Below are positions 26,183 to 46,388 of a stretch of DNA of 46,388 bases, in pieces (position 1 is the stretch's first letter; every line of letters starts with the position of its first letter). Origin of the DNA: a virus. The position numbers and the translations under genes were made by a program. The notes under the pieces are model-generated. The model was not told where the DNA came from. It was given only the letters and a program-made list of their open reading frames with translations, and did not search any database. The stretch spans positions 1 through 46,388 of the IMG/VR virus record IMGVR_UViG_3300046694_000244, one strand, 5' to 3'.

Positions 26183-26776
26183 TTATTTATGTAAGCGCCA
26201 CGCCTCTCGCCGCTCACGCTTCAGTGCGTTATTCCATGGTCTTTCGACTGACAGCCCATCGTCATGGTCAACCAATGAACGGCAGGGGTAGACGATCATG
26301 CCGCCCCACGCATCACCAACCGCGTAGTCTGCGGCCTTGCCTTGTTCCCAGCGGCTCAGCACTGCGGGCAGATGCGCCTGCGGCACGCTGTAGCACACGC
26401 CGTGGATGAGGCGGGGTAATATGATGTGGTCGGCATGAACCCTGTCGGCTTCAATAAGTTTCGTGGCTATCTGCGGCTGATACTGAGGCGGGCGACCAGT
26501 GCCGAGATAGAAGCTAATCAGCTGATCGGGAAACCGCTCAAGCCATTCATGAACCAGACCAGCGAATCCCGCCACCGGTAGCGCATCATCTTCAACCACA
26601 ACGACTCGTTTATCCTGCTGTACTGCCCACTGCATGGCGCGGCGGTGATTCCAGTTCGCGCCATGGTCGCCCTCATCAATCAGAAGGTGAGCATCAAGCG
26701 AATGCGCCAGGGCTTCGGCCTGAGCGCGGCGTTTATGATGCCCGACGACGACAAAGGCTACTTGTGCCGATACCAT
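26183..26776 (-). CDS. Glycosyltransferase-like protein (GT-A fold, GT25-like)
   Basis: A 197-residue protein. It begins with a beta strand VAFVVVGHHKRRAQAEALAH and has the acidic motif VVVVEDDALPVAGF, typical of the metal/nucleotide-sugar site of GT-A enzymes of the GT25 type. LPRLIHGVCYSVPQAHLPAV and WGGMIVYPCRSLVDHDD follow, as in GT25-like proteins. It overlaps the 485-residue glycosyltransferase gene by 19 bases, so the two are probably co-translated and act together. Substrate unknown: virion, DNA or cell surface are all possible. Confidence 0.65.
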   Translation of the reverse strand: MVSAQVAFVVVGHHKRRAQAEALAHSLDAHLLIDEGDHGANWNHRRAMQWAVQQDKRVVVVEDDALPVAGFAGLVHEWLERFPDQLISFYLGTGRPPQYQPQIATKLIEADRVHADHIILPRLIHGVCYSVPQAHLPAVLSRWEQGKAADYAVGDAWGGMIVYPCRSLVDHDDGLSVERPWNNALKRERREAWRLHK

Positions 26777-28215
26777 GCCAGCTCCTTTCCGATGCCATTG
26801 GACTTGAATACCGTGTTTACCTGCGGCCCGTGTACAACACGCTCCCCAAATGACTTAGCGACGATGCCAAAAGCGATCATATCGCCAATGGCTGCCGCGC
26901 TCTGCTCTGTCTTCCAGAATCGATAGCTTTCGATGCGGTAATAGAGACGAACGATGCCATGAGCAAACGCCATAACATCGTCACGGCTTCCACCCAACAG
27001 GCCAGCGTTAAGCATCACATCGTTGAGATGCTGAGCAATGAAGCTCTGATACAGCTTTTCGGGATGGTTTTTTGCCGCCCACGCATCCGCGTAAAGCGTT
27101 GGCTCTGAGCCAACATATATTTTCCCCGGCTCCATATCAGCCCACGGCTCGCGCAACATTTCTACGTCTGTCCCGTCTGTACACCAGACGCTGCTGTATT
27201 CAGGATGAGCGCGCAGATACTGATAAATATGAAGCCAGCGCCTGAAGTAAATATTCATATTCACATCAGTTGCGCGCGCCAGCTTCGCGCCTGCTGGGGC
27301 TTCGCTCAGCTCATCTGCAAGCACGACCGCATCAGCTGCCCTGATTGACTTTGCCCATGGCGACAATAGCGAGGCATCGGCTTTCATCCTCGCCCCGCGT
27401 TGTGGGTCCGGTCTACTGGTCAGCAAAGTGGTCAGCACCAGATTTTTACGCGGTCGATAATCGACGTAGCCGGTGTAGCCGCTGTCGCGTCGCTGATTGA
27501 ACGTACCGGCGTTACGTCTTACCAGACGTACGCGGTCAGGCTGAGGAACAGAACGCTCGACCGCTTCGTGCTCATCCAGCGAGTAAATTAACTTTTCGGA
27601 GCCGGTAACGTCGGCAAATGCCCAGCTCGTTAGCCCTGCATTGTGGATGCGCTGCGCCAAATCGCCGTGCTCATACATCCCACGGCCATAGACCGGATCG
27701 AACCCGCCGACTTTCTCGATGGCGCTGCGGTGGTAGTACAGCATGACCCCACGCTGCCCTGTGTAGGCCACATGGCGCGAATCACTATGCAGCACAGCCA
27801 TGTCTTTCAGCTTCTTAGGGCCAGCCAGATCAAGGAATTGATACGCCAGATGCGGTTCTGGTGATTCGATGTATGGCTTGTGCCAATCATCAGCAATCGG
27901 AAAGGCATCATCGTCCCACAAAAACAAATGCTCACATCCAGCATCCATAAGCGCCGTAAGGCTTGTGTTTTTAGCTGCAACGATACCCATCGAAGTGCTA
28001 TGCCGGATAAGCTGCACACTAGCTGGAACGCTTGCCGCTGGCACCGAACCATCATCAATAACAAATATTCGCGCACCTGCTGGGAGATGCTTTAAATGCT
28101 GCTCAATGGTTTTCTTTAATACCACGGCTCTGTTATGGGTTGAGATGGCAATGCCGATCCTTCCCGCTGATACACGCGCAGGCGCATACGGGGCACCATC
28201 AATAGTGACCTCCAT
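26758..28215 (-). CDS. Two-domain glycosyltransferase (GT2 N-terminus)
   Basis: A 485-residue protein. Residues about 18-240 are a GT2 (GT-A) domain: IGIAISTHNRAVVLKKTIEQ, FVIDDGSVPA with the nucleotide-binding DDGS, HLFLWDDDAFPIADD with the DxD-type metal site, and VGGFDPVYGRGMYEHGDLAQ. A second domain from about residue 260 has its own acidic motif SVWCTDGTDVEMLREPW, so this may be a bifunctional enzyme. GGAG precedes ATG 28215. No membrane helices, so it is a soluble enzyme. The pairing with the next gene and the location beside cos suggest cargo. Confidence 0.8.
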   Translation of the reverse strand: MEVTIDGAPYAPARVSAGRIGIAISTHNRAVVLKKTIEQHLKHLPAGARIFVIDDGSVPAASVPASVQLIRHSTSMGIVAAKNTSLTALMDAGCEHLFLWDDDAFPIADDWHKPYIESPEPHLAYQFLDLAGPKKLKDMAVLHSDSRHVAYTGQRGVMLYYHRSAIEKVGGFDPVYGRGMYEHGDLAQRIHNAGLTSWAFADVTGSEKLIYSLDEHEAVERSVPQPDRVRLVRRNAGTFNQRRDSGYTGYVDYRPRKNLVLTTLLTSRPDPQRGARMKADASLLSPWAKSIRAADAVVLADELSEAPAGAKLARATDVNMNIYFRRWLHIYQYLRAHPEYSSVWCTDGTDVEMLREPWADMEPGKIYVGSEPTLYADAWAAKNHPEKLYQSFIAQHLNDVMLNAGLLGGSRDDVMAFAHGIVRLYYRIESYRFWKTEQSAAAIGDMIAFGIVAKSFGERVVHGPQVNTVFKSNGIGKELAWYRHK

Positions 28216-28245: not shown

Positions 28246-28273
28246 TTGAATATAATCATTTTTTGATTATACT
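28246..28273 (+). promoter_or_regulatory. Promoter with inverted-repeat operator of the acr/aca-like operon
   Basis: -35 TTGAAT (28246-28251) and -10 TATACT (28268-28273) are 16 bases apart. Between and overlapping them is a perfect 8-bp inverted repeat, TATAATCA (28251-28258) / TGATTATA (28264-28271), with a T5 spacer. An inverted repeat here is the usual binding site for Aca repressors, which shut down acr expression by blocking RNA polymerase. Confidence 0.78.
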
Positions 28274-28304
28274 ATCTTTATCGAAACGCACTCAGGACTT
28301 AAAA

Positions 28305-28763
28305 ATGAAACTCTTCCACGGCTCATACAGCAACACCGCACCAACTATCAAAATCGGTGCGTTCGCTATGTCAGGTGACAACGTATTTGATGGTCTTTTT
28401 GCCAGTGCAGATGCCGATATCGCTGGCTCACACGGTACGTTTGTGCACTCTTACCAGGTCGAGTCTATCGCCGACAGCTCAGATTTAAATGCGCGTATTG
28501 ATGACGCGATTTCATTCCTACGCGGCGAAATTGAAGCAGATGAAGAGCAGCTGGAAGCCCTGGTAAATGCCCTGGCTGACGATGAGTGCGGCGATACTTT
28601 CGCTGATATCCTCATGCCTCGCTCATGCACTGGTGATGCAGGCTGGGAAATGCAGCGTCTACGTGGCCGCGTGGCCGCCCATCTTGGTTTCGATGCCGTA
28701 GAGATGGAAGATGAGCATGGCACCAGTTATTTAATCGTTAACCCGAACATTATCGCGGAGTAA
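28305..28763 (+). CDS. AcrIF11-like anti-CRISPR (ADP-ribosyltransferase fold)
   Basis: 152 residues from ATG 28305 (AGGA eight bases upstream). From memory it shares the AcrIF11 signature: an N-terminal KLFHGSY (residues 2-8), VFDGLFAS (27-34), SHG (42-44), and the C-terminal block WEMQRLRG...AHLGFDAVEMEDEHGTSYL (114-143). AcrIF11 is an ADP-ribosyltransferase that modifies Cas8f of type I-F CRISPR-Cas and blocks PAM recognition. An insertion of acidic residues (about 60-95) differs from the Pseudomonas form. It is divergent from the flanking late genes and is followed at once by a helix-turn-helix gene, the classic acr-aca layout. Activity is unproven. Confidence 0.78.
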   Translation: MKLFHGSYSNTAPTIKIGAFAMSGDNVFDGLFASADADIAGSHGTFVHSYQVESIADSSDLNARIDDAISFLRGEIEADEEQLEALVNALADDECGDTFADILMPRSCTGDAGWEMQRLRGRVAAHLGFDAVEMEDEHGTSYLIVNPNIIAE

Positions 28764-28766
28764 GTT

Positions 28767-28964
28767 ATGAGGCTCACTGAATACATCGCGCTTCACTTTG
28801 CTGGCAACAAAGCCGAGTTTGCCCGCCACATGAATGTTATTCCGCAGCAAGTAACTAAATGGATTAATGCGGAGTGGATAGTGGTCGGGCACACTCTTTA
28901 CAGCCCGCGACGTTCTGTGCCGCAAGACAGCGCACAAGAACCTGTCCATGGTCAACGCGCTTAA
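28767..28964 (+). CDS. Aca-like helix-turn-helix repressor
   Basis: A 65-residue protein starting three bases after the acr-like stop, with GGAG at about 28756. The sequence MRLTEYIALHFAGNKAEFAR, HMNVIPQQVTKWINAEW and VVGHTLYSPRR shows a Cro/YdaS-type HTH and a short basic tail. Anti-CRISPR-associated (Aca) proteins are small HTH autoregulators encoded just after acr genes; the inverted repeat in the promoter at 28251-28271 is its likely operator. Which numbered Aca family it belongs to is not decided here. Confidence 0.7.
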   Translation: MRLTEYIALHFAGNKAEFARHMNVIPQQVTKWINAEWIVVGHTLYSPRRSVPQDSAQEPVHGQRA

Positions 28965-28997: not shown

Positions 28998-29249
28998 TTA
29001 TTGAGCGACAGCGCCTTTCGGCAATTCGGTAATCCCGTAGATTGGTTGACCTGGTGCATCAGCTGCTTCGACCATGGAAAGGTCGCTTTCGTCAAACCAT
29101 TGCGTCATCGCGCGGCCATCGGCTGCTGCATAGTGAACGCGGTACCCGTTTTCTGAGCCGTTGGCGTATTCTGCGCGCGCCTTAACAGCACCAAACTCAC
29201 CGCTCACGGTAATCTCTACCAACTGGTTTAAACCGAATTTAAAAGACAT
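28998..29249 (-). CDS. Hypothetical late-region protein
   Basis: 83 residues from ATG 29249 (GGAG upstream). It reads MSFKFGLNQLVEITVSGEFG, AKARAEYANGSENGYRVHYA-like beta-rich sequence, then WFDESDL and GQPIYGITELPKG. It is conserved-looking phage protein of unknown function, probably a small beta barrel (KOW/SH3-like). It lies between the aca-like gene (convergent) and the holin, behind a terminator. Confidence 0.65.
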   Translation of the reverse strand: MSFKFGLNQLVEITVSGEFGAVKARAEYANGSENGYRVHYAAADGRAMTQWFDESDLSMVEAADAPGQPIYGITELPKGAVAQ

Positions 29250-29271
29250 ATAGACTCCATATAAAAGAAAA

Positions 29272-29287
29272 CCCCGCATTTGCGAGG
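29272..29287 (-). terminator. Terminator after the holin gene
   Basis: Stem CCTCGC / GCGGGG (one G-T pair) with an AAAT loop, followed by TTTTCTTTTAT on the minus strand. Confidence 0.7.
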
Positions 29288-44585: not shown

Positions 44586-46388
44586 TTAGAAATAGTTGTT
44601 CCACGCAGCCTTCATAGCAGCCAGAGTATTATCGGCCTTACCACGCCAGAAGTAGTTTTTACCTTGCAGCGAAAACTCAACCACCCAAAACCCTTCCTTA
44701 TCGCGCTTTGGTGTTTTGAATCTGGGTAGTTCTTTCTGTTCTGCTGGCTCACTCTCCGTGTATTCAGGCTCATCAAGTGCCGACTCATCCTCTTCATATT
44801 CCTCATCCTGAGCTTCAACATCATCTTCATCCTTACCCAAAGAAAGGACAACAGGGGAAGCCTGGGCATCAGCGCTTTTTAGCCAGCCGTTTTCTCCAAC
44901 AGCCTGTCCCAATGCATCTGAAGCAAAATCAAGGTATCGCCGTACCAGGGTCGGATTGAAACCTATTTTTCGAAGGGTATTAGTATTAATAACTACGTTC
45001 CCGCCTTCCTCAACAAGCTGTTTCACCGCATTATGAATGCGCACACCGGCATCGCCTTTAGCAAACTCAGGCATATGGTCGTCGAGCGCTTGCAGGGCTG
45101 CTAAGCGCTTATTTTCAACACCAGTGTTTGGCCTCCAGCTGCGAGTGAAATTATGTAGTTTAAATTGCTTGTAGTGCAGCTGTGTATTTTCGTCGTCATG
45201 CCCTAAAATTTCCGCAAAAAACACATCTTCATCGACATTCTTCCAGCGCGGATCGTATTTGAACCACGCTTCGTATGCGATACGGGCATAAATGGCGCGA
45301 GAATCTTTAAATGTTCTTCGATCATCGTTAAAGAACTCTTTCGCAAATTTATTAAAACAGCTTCCAAGTATTGAGGCTATGCGTACATTTGCAGCCCGAT
45401 AGCTCTCATCATTAAGTAGCTCCCTGATTTCATCAAAATCAGCTGCCGCTGGGCAGCTACGTAACTCCTGCAGACGTTGAGCAAACATCTTTGCATCACA
45501 GAGGGTATAAATTTTCCTGCCATTGTCCTCTCCGGTACGCTTTTTAGCTTGCCCATGGAAAATCACTTCATAACGCCCTACGATCTCGAAGCTACCCTGC
45601 ACCATAACTTCAATCATTCGACGCCCAGAGACCGCTGCAAGAGCGAATGCTAAAGGGGCCATATCTTGCCGCTGATTAATAAATTGAGGGTTGAACGGGG
45701 CATAAATGATGTCGGTTATCCGCTGCATATAGGTCGGATAGTCCAATAATATTGTATTGCGTTTCTTCTCTCCGAGTACGTTATCCCACTGAGTCTGAAT
45801 AGAGGCGCGTTCTGAGGCGCTGAGCTGCAAGTGATACAGTATTTCGTGATTTATACGTAACTTATTTAAGTCCTCAAGGAGCCTACTACCTTGTTGAAAA
45901 ACCTGATGTGTTTCTCGCTCCGCTCCCTTCCAGTCATCACTGGCCAATGCCGTTAAATTGGCAGACCAATCAGGATACTTTGAGGCTAATTTCTCTAACT
46001 TTTTCTTTGATGCAGGCCCGCTCTTAACATCAGACAATGCTTCCGCAAGTGACATAATCATGCGTAACTTGTTCTGCAGCTGGTTGAACCGCTGACGGAT
46101 AGCTGCAGCAGGTAATAACTTCCAGCTCTCAAGTTCTCCTGCAAACGCAGGGTAGCGCCCCGCCAAACGTTCTACACTGACGTGAAAGTGATGATGAAGT
46201 CTGTCGTCAAACTGCTTTCTTATTCTGGTTACATATGCGTTGTAAGTATTTAAAGTTATTCGCTTTTCTATCCCTTTCCCGGAATATTTTCTTTTATCTA
46301 AAAAGAGTTCATTTTTAACTTTTGATGCCGCTGCTTTGTACTTTCTGGTTTTATCTCCTTGAGGAATACTTGATACTTCTATCTCATC
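44586..46388 (-). CDS. telK: Protelomerase (TelK-like), 5' end outside the window
   Basis: The reading frame extends without a stop to the window edge, so it is partial; about 15-20 N-terminal residues are missing. At least 600 residues are present. Catalytic region: LAAVSGRRMIEVMVQG (Arg), SRAIYARIAYEAWFK (Arg) and ILGHDDENTQLHYKQFKL with the active-site Tyr in LHYKQF. Residues before the first ATG in the window (46166) continue the TelK-like sequence (FDDRLHHHF, NTYNAYVTRIRK). The acidic linker and a C-terminal DNA-binding domain match phiKO2 TelK. It makes the hairpin ends of the linear prophage. By analogy its target lies just beyond the window. Confidence 0.95.
   Translation of the reverse strand, partial: DEIEVSSIPQGDKTRKYKAAASKVKNELFLDKRKYSGKGIEKRITLNTYNAYVTRIRKQFDDRLHHHFHVSVERLAGRYPAFAGELESWKLLPAAAIRQRFNQLQNKLRMIMSLAEALSDVKSGPASKKKLEKLASKYPDWSANLTALASDDWKGAERETHQVFQQGSRLLEDLNKLRINHEILYHLQLSASERASIQTQWDNVLGEKKRNTILLDYPTYMQRITDIIYAPFNPQFINQRQDMAPLAFALAAVSGRRMIEVMVQGSFEIVGRYEVIFHGQAKKRTGEDNGRKIYTLCDAKMFAQRLQELRSCPAAADFDEIRELLNDESYRAANVRIASILGSCFNKFAKEFFNDDRRTFKDSRAIYARIAYEAWFKYDPRWKNVDEDVFFAEILGHDDENTQLHYKQFKLHNFTRSWRPNTGVENKRLAALQALDDHMPEFAKGDAGVRIHNAVKQLVEEGGNVVINTNTLRKIGFNPTLVRRYLDFASDALGQAVGENGWLKSADAQASPVVLSLGKDEDDVEAQDEEYEEDESALDEPEYTESEPAEQKELPRFKTPKRDKEGFWVVEFSLQGKNYFWRGKADNTLAAMKAAWNNYF

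Follow-up and report, generated by a model that had tools for sequence, protein, structure and literature searches.

Within the 46,388-nucleotide stretch of viral DNA analysed here (the window), two small genes on the plus strand sit among late genes that are all carried on the minus strand on both flanks. An earlier note, made from the letters alone, had read the pair as an operon of an AcrIF11-like anti-CRISPR gene and an Aca-like regulator gene on a mobile linear phage-plasmid. We asked whether the first gene encodes an AcrIF11-type inhibitor of type I-F CRISPR interference, what the second gene is likely to do, and what kind of element carries them. The reading we favour, to which we assign a probability of about 0.88, is that an N15-like linear phage-plasmid carries the pair as cargo, as an acrIF11-aca operon in which the enzyme is predicted to block Cas8f and the HTH protein to act as repressor.

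Under this reading, a plus-strand sigma-70 promoter, directed opposite to the late genes, would drive both genes on entry of the DNA. Once the type I-F surveillance complex has assembled, the enzyme (P0001) would bind it and put ADP-ribose on the PAM-reading Asn of Cas8f/Csy1 (N250 in Pseudomonas aeruginosa numbering), and target DNA would no longer be bound by the modified protein. The HTH protein (P0002), presumably as a dimer, would bind an inverted repeat that lies between the -35 box and the -10 box, and would shut the promoter once it is abundant enough.

The enzyme gene and its predicted target

The first gene (28305–28763, plus strand; ATG at 28305, TAA at 28761–28763) encodes P0001, a 152-residue acrIF11 homologue and predicted ADP-ribosyltransferase. 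The HTH gene (28767–28964, plus strand; ATG at 28767) encodes the 65-residue P0002 and begins three bases downstream, with its Shine-Dalgarno sequence GGAG (28757–28760, plus strand) inside the 3' end of the acr gene. The pair is flanked by minus-strand glycosyltransferase genes (26183–28215) on one side and by the minus-strand gene of a small phage protein (28998–29279) on the other; further minus-strand genes in the flanks encode a phrog_3054 protein and a DNA methyltransferase. The first gene is not a chance open reading frame, since it has relatives at 93–46% identity in 27 viral contigs and purifying selection acts on its frame, with a dN/dS of about 0.08 in comparison with the L007 protein (93% identical).

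All four motifs on which the earlier note had based its family assignment (KLFHGSY, VFDGLFAS, WEMQRLRG and VEMEDEHGT) are present in P0001, and the two computational checks that it had proposed, a search against AcrIF11 profiles and a structure comparison, both uphold that assignment. P0001 has a single NCBIfam match, to the AcrIF11 equivalog model NF052490, at 128.9 bits (cut-off 50), with residues 1–144 aligned to profile positions 1–142; Pfam holds no family for it. A phmmer search of the PDB recovered both solved AcrIF11 structures, 6KYF (AcrIF11Pae1; E 7.2e-15) and 8DWQ (AcrIF11Pae2; E 4.6e-4). A first AF2 model of P0001, built from 19 close sequences, had a pLDDT of 69; with distant relatives added the AlphaFold model reached a pLDDT of 92 and a pTM of 0.88, and its top Foldseek match in the PDB was 6KYF (E 1.2e-9; TM 0.70/0.77, the higher value on the target).

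The residues of the active site are conserved as well. D136-E137 of P0001 (codons at 28710–28715, plus strand) fall on D146/E147 of AcrIF11Pae2 in the 8DWQ alignment, and in the phmmer alignment D136 is paired with the Asp in the MEDEH loop of 6KYF. We take this Asp to be D115 of AcrIF11Pae1, because the deposited 6KYF chain is five residues longer than the natural 132-residue protein. H5 (codon at 28317–28319, plus strand), within an FHGS motif, is equivalent to the invariant NAD-site His by sequence alignment only. None of H5, D136 and E137 varies among 25 relatives, one of which is only 31% identical. Mutating D115 (Pae1) or D146/E147 (Pae2) abolishes both ADP-ribosylation and CRISPR inhibition, and the H-F-H-D residue set that includes the His matched to H5 has been described (PMC12421852).

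These sequence and model comparisons support the placement of P0001 in the known AcrIF11 family. It resembles AcrIF11Pae1 (6KYF) and AcrIF11Pae2 (8DWQ) in its full-length sequence match, fold and His/Asp-Glu active-site residues, and in a phage or plasmid location with an HTH gene behind; it differs in that its subgroup is enterobacterial and has a longer helical region, and in being carried by an N15-like protelomerase phage-plasmid. P0001 belongs to phrog_11282 and P0002 to phrog_10103 (E 3e-16), both without a function in PHROGs and here linked to AcrIF11 and to an Aca5-like putative repressor, respectively. The occurrence of AcrIF11 on phages and plasmids with HTH partners behind it has already been published; P0001 adds a member carried by an N15-like phage-plasmid.

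The Asn that P0001 would modify is conserved in potential hosts. N250 of Csy1 (P. aeruginosa numbering, from the 5uz9 alignment) lies in a GG-x-K-x-x-N motif found by pattern in 16 of 17 enterobacterial Csy1 loci; the enterobacterial form of the motif is GG(T/S)KPxN, and the seventeenth locus (L179) reads GGDNKQN, with the Asn kept. Csy1 scored over the cut-off in about one in six sampled genomes (16/99 and 25/149, in overlapping samples). Brenneria sp. 4F2 and Yersinia vastinensis each combine a close AcrIF11 gene with a type I-F system in their genome; no type I-F system was found in the assemblies of Pectobacterium fontis and Rouxiella badensis, both of which have AcrIF11. The Brenneria Csy3 retains K58 and lacks K60, both of which AcrIF11Pae1 needs. 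This agrees with a published proposal in which Csy ortholog specificity is tuned by the variable helical region of AcrIF11 (PMC12421852), and the helical region of P0001, thought to set the Csy ortholog recognised, differs from those of the tested P. aeruginosa proteins.

The divergent helical target-recognition region, the absence of K60 from the enterobacterial Csy3 checked, and the presence of more distant ADP-ribosyltransferases in the same operon slot (L039 and L194) could also be read to mean that P0001 keeps the AcrIF11 fold and has been retargeted, to a host or competitor-phage protein or to another CRISPR subtype, and is not a Cas8f inhibitor. We consider this improbable, given that the 128.9-bit match is to an equivalog model, that the target Asn and Csy3 K58 are conserved, that a type I-F system is present in at least two genomes with a close AcrIF11, and that Csy1 is modified by AcrIF11Pae1 as well as AcrIF11Pae2, with a similarity of only about 27% between them (PMC12421852). 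P0001 is best regarded as a putative Cas8f inhibitor, which would be catalytically active, would modify Csy1 in the host of the carrier and would inhibit type I-F interference.

The carrier element and its cargo slot

The description of the carrier as a linear phage-plasmid is supported. A TelK-type protelomerase gene (44586–46388, minus strand) is cut by the contig end, with 600 codons open up to the final base and without the known N terminus; it shares 54–63% identity with its counterparts in N15, phiKO2 and Salmonella elements. The window also encodes ParA and SopB domains, a 1340-residue replication protein of phrog_4913, of the phage RepA type, and an antirepressor. This gene content supports an N15-like linear phage-plasmid as the carrier. 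Among 34 other AcrIF11-bearing records tested, only the element of Rouxiella badensis (viral contig L027, plasmid pSP2) has a protelomerase too. A predicted catalytic type I-F inhibitor is thereby placed on an element that combines phage-type spread with persistence as a plasmid.

In three related phage contigs both flanks of the operon are kept, AcrIF11 is absent and other genes take its place, so the operon is cargo in a variable slot. This cargo hotspot lies between the glycosyltransferase gene and the small gene at 28998–29279. Other genes occupy the acr-aca slot in L189 and L190, and in L191 (4885–5556) the slot holds genes that by eye are HicA-/HicB-like, on the same strand as acr-aca.

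Among the plasmid records of PLSDB, 512 match AcrIF11, 254 of them across 80% or more of its length and most of these being conjugative plasmids of Escherichia and Klebsiella, and 577 match the HTH family.

The HTH gene, the promoter and the predicted operator

P0002 has no match to an Aca model in NCBIfam or Pfam (in Pfam there are only sub-threshold matches, YdaS among them) and none in a sequence search of the PDB. It is 58% identical to the HTH protein behind acrIF11 in Pectobacterium fontis and 55% identical to 60-residue HTH proteins of the same series. The family alignment was too diverse for a degenerate search, with no conserved stretches, and was split into two sub-alignments for that purpose. 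A member of the HTH family stands behind acr in 23 of the 27 AcrIF11 viral loci (L030 being counted via L086), in most relatives within a few bases, and the family also closes operons that are led by different small proteins, often acidic. This arrangement is that of Aca5, whose position is fixed while the acr candidates in front of it vary (PMC7648647). Aca proteins repress through inverted repeats in the promoter (PMC9410906).

The earlier note had delimited the locus from position 28246, which is exactly the first base of a -35 box, TTGAAT (28246–28251, plus strand), conserved as TTGNNN at the same place in relatives. A -10 box, TATACT (28268–28273, plus strand), follows 16 bp from the -35 box and overlaps a predicted operator, the perfect inverted repeat TATAATCA-TTTTT-TGATTATA (28251–28271), which lies between the two boxes. 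TATAATCA-N5-TGATTATA has no other match in the window, even at three mismatches (0.18 expected). Relatives have a repeat at the same promoter position with different letters, both arms having changed together in a compensatory manner. Taken by themselves, the sigma-70 boxes do not exceed chance expectation, with 1 found against 1.9 expected, and the case for the promoter therefore rests on conservation and on the operator.

The window and most relatives share a conserved 5' leader, ATCGAAACGnnnTGAGG, between the promoter and the start codon, about 10–35 bases before acr begins; it also precedes some non-acr cargo. Rfam gave no element in the operon region and no match for ATCGAAACGnnnTGAGG.

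The operon can be compared with that of Aca5 (WP_039494319.1, 60 residues, Pectobacterium carotovorum; PMC7648647, PMC9410906). Both regulators are small HTH proteins in the fixed last place of Enterobacterales acr operons, behind acrIF11, and both operons have an inverted repeat in the core promoter. P0002 differs in its length of 65 residues, and the HTH family seen here, unlike Aca5, has several distinct operator types. We call P0002 Aca5-like by operon layout, family-wide linkage and the predicted core-promoter operator, the same features that sustain the earlier label of an Aca-like regulator.

The order of the two genes resembles that of a toxin-antitoxin module, here an ADP-ribosyltransferase toxin with a small HTH antitoxin, and the sub-threshold YdaS match of the HTH protein, a weak fold similarity of P0001 to the MbcT toxin and the HicA/HicB-like genes in the same slot of a relative phage agree with such a module. 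We nevertheless hold it to be extremely unlikely, because AcrIF11 occurs without the HTH protein and the HTH protein with unrelated partners: AcrIF11 genes in L026, L027, L031, L046, L049 and L164 have no HTH neighbour, which argues that no antitoxin is needed, and the same HTH family stands behind many unrelated small proteins with the same operator type. Csy1 is, moreover, the only AcrIF11-modified protein detectable in cells (PMC12421852).

Unrelated small proteins are encoded in the slot of AcrIF11, with the same operator type, in L052, L053, L064, L068, L070, L085–L093, L104 and L105. An NCBIfam scan of 20 same-slot proteins identified nothing beyond a further AcrIF11-type enzyme and a single weak match, DinI-like, and the small genes in this slot are candidate anti-defence genes. 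Divergent AcrIF11Pae2-like enzymes with a DEQG motif, accompanied by a TQW-type member of this HTH family, are found at L039 (2461–2889) and L194 (1022–1501; Providencia phage PSTNGR2lys), the latter with two tandem ATAAAGT-N5-GCTTTAT-like repeats upstream. On the plasmids L041 (Salmonella) and L044 (Enterobacter), a longer HTH gene stands solo, with a perfect ATAATCA-N5-TGATTAT just upstream, and adjoins a gene annotated as 'abortive infection family protein'; these solo HTH proteins are possibly repressors able to silence incoming acr operons.

Recognition helix and operator sequence

Across 51 non-redundant operons, the distance between operators tracks the distance between recognition helices (r 0.57). 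After removal of the similarity of the rest of the protein, the partial Mantel r is 0.55 (0 of 2000 permutations), compared with 0.33 for the rest of the protein. Mutual information with the operator peaks at HTH residues 28, 25, 35, 31 and 30; the recognition-helix segment of P0002, VIPQQVTKW (residues 24–32; 28836–28862, plus strand), contains residues 25, 28, 30 and 31.

This covariation bears on whether the HTH gene is an unrelated passenger that does not regulate acr. The lack of a P0002 match to Aca models in NCBIfam and Pfam would suit a passenger, and binding and repression by P0002 are themselves only predicted. The adjacency of the two genes is, on the other hand, conserved across diverged loci, and the promoter operator covaries more strongly with the recognition helix than with other parts of the protein, which makes a passenger very unlikely. 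The helix-operator data indicate that the HTH family reads the operator, and P0002 most likely autoregulates its operon, a mode of control established for other Aca proteins (PMC9410906).

The clearest single correspondence involves residue 26. Arg or Lys at this position goes with G at the outer base of the half-site in 14 of 14 operons and any other residue with A in 37 of 37, counts that are inflated by relatedness; by distinct helix sequence they become 7/7 and 12/12. On a tree built without the helix there are seven changes of residue 26 and seven of the outer base, of which only two independent pairs lie on supported branches; both agree, and because there are only two we claim no significance from the tree. 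Loci outside the 51, on plasmids and phage (L041, L043 and L044; L192 and L194), agree for the classes that they represent, in a check made after the rule had been seen and without pre-registration; for L193 the site of the clade type came second in the ranking, and no clear site emerged for L195. The recognition helix is not the whole code: the operator paired with the helix VLPQQVTKW is ATAATCA in one clade and ATAAACC in a second, which differs at residues 20–22.

From these alignments we think it somewhat more probable than the contrary that Aca5-like repressors have a readable DNA code, in which residues 25, 26, 28, 30 and 31 would set the operator. Arg/Lys26 would specify the outer G, QQ-TK the sequence AATCA, QA-NK AGTCA, QK-QD AACCG, and TQ AAAGT or ATAGT, and the code would hold across operons with unrelated cargo. 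We found no description of such a rule in the literature searched; it is the least expected part of the analysis and worth following.

The acrIF11-aca pair offers a ready enterobacterial set of enzyme and repressor for testing what sets Csy ortholog specificity. If the helix-operator rule is true, a matching helix and operator may let repressors cross-silence the acr operons of other elements, and helix and operator together could locate anti-defence genes that are as yet unknown. Under the rule, one could predict, and directly test, how acr is repressed and whether mobile elements cross-repress one another.
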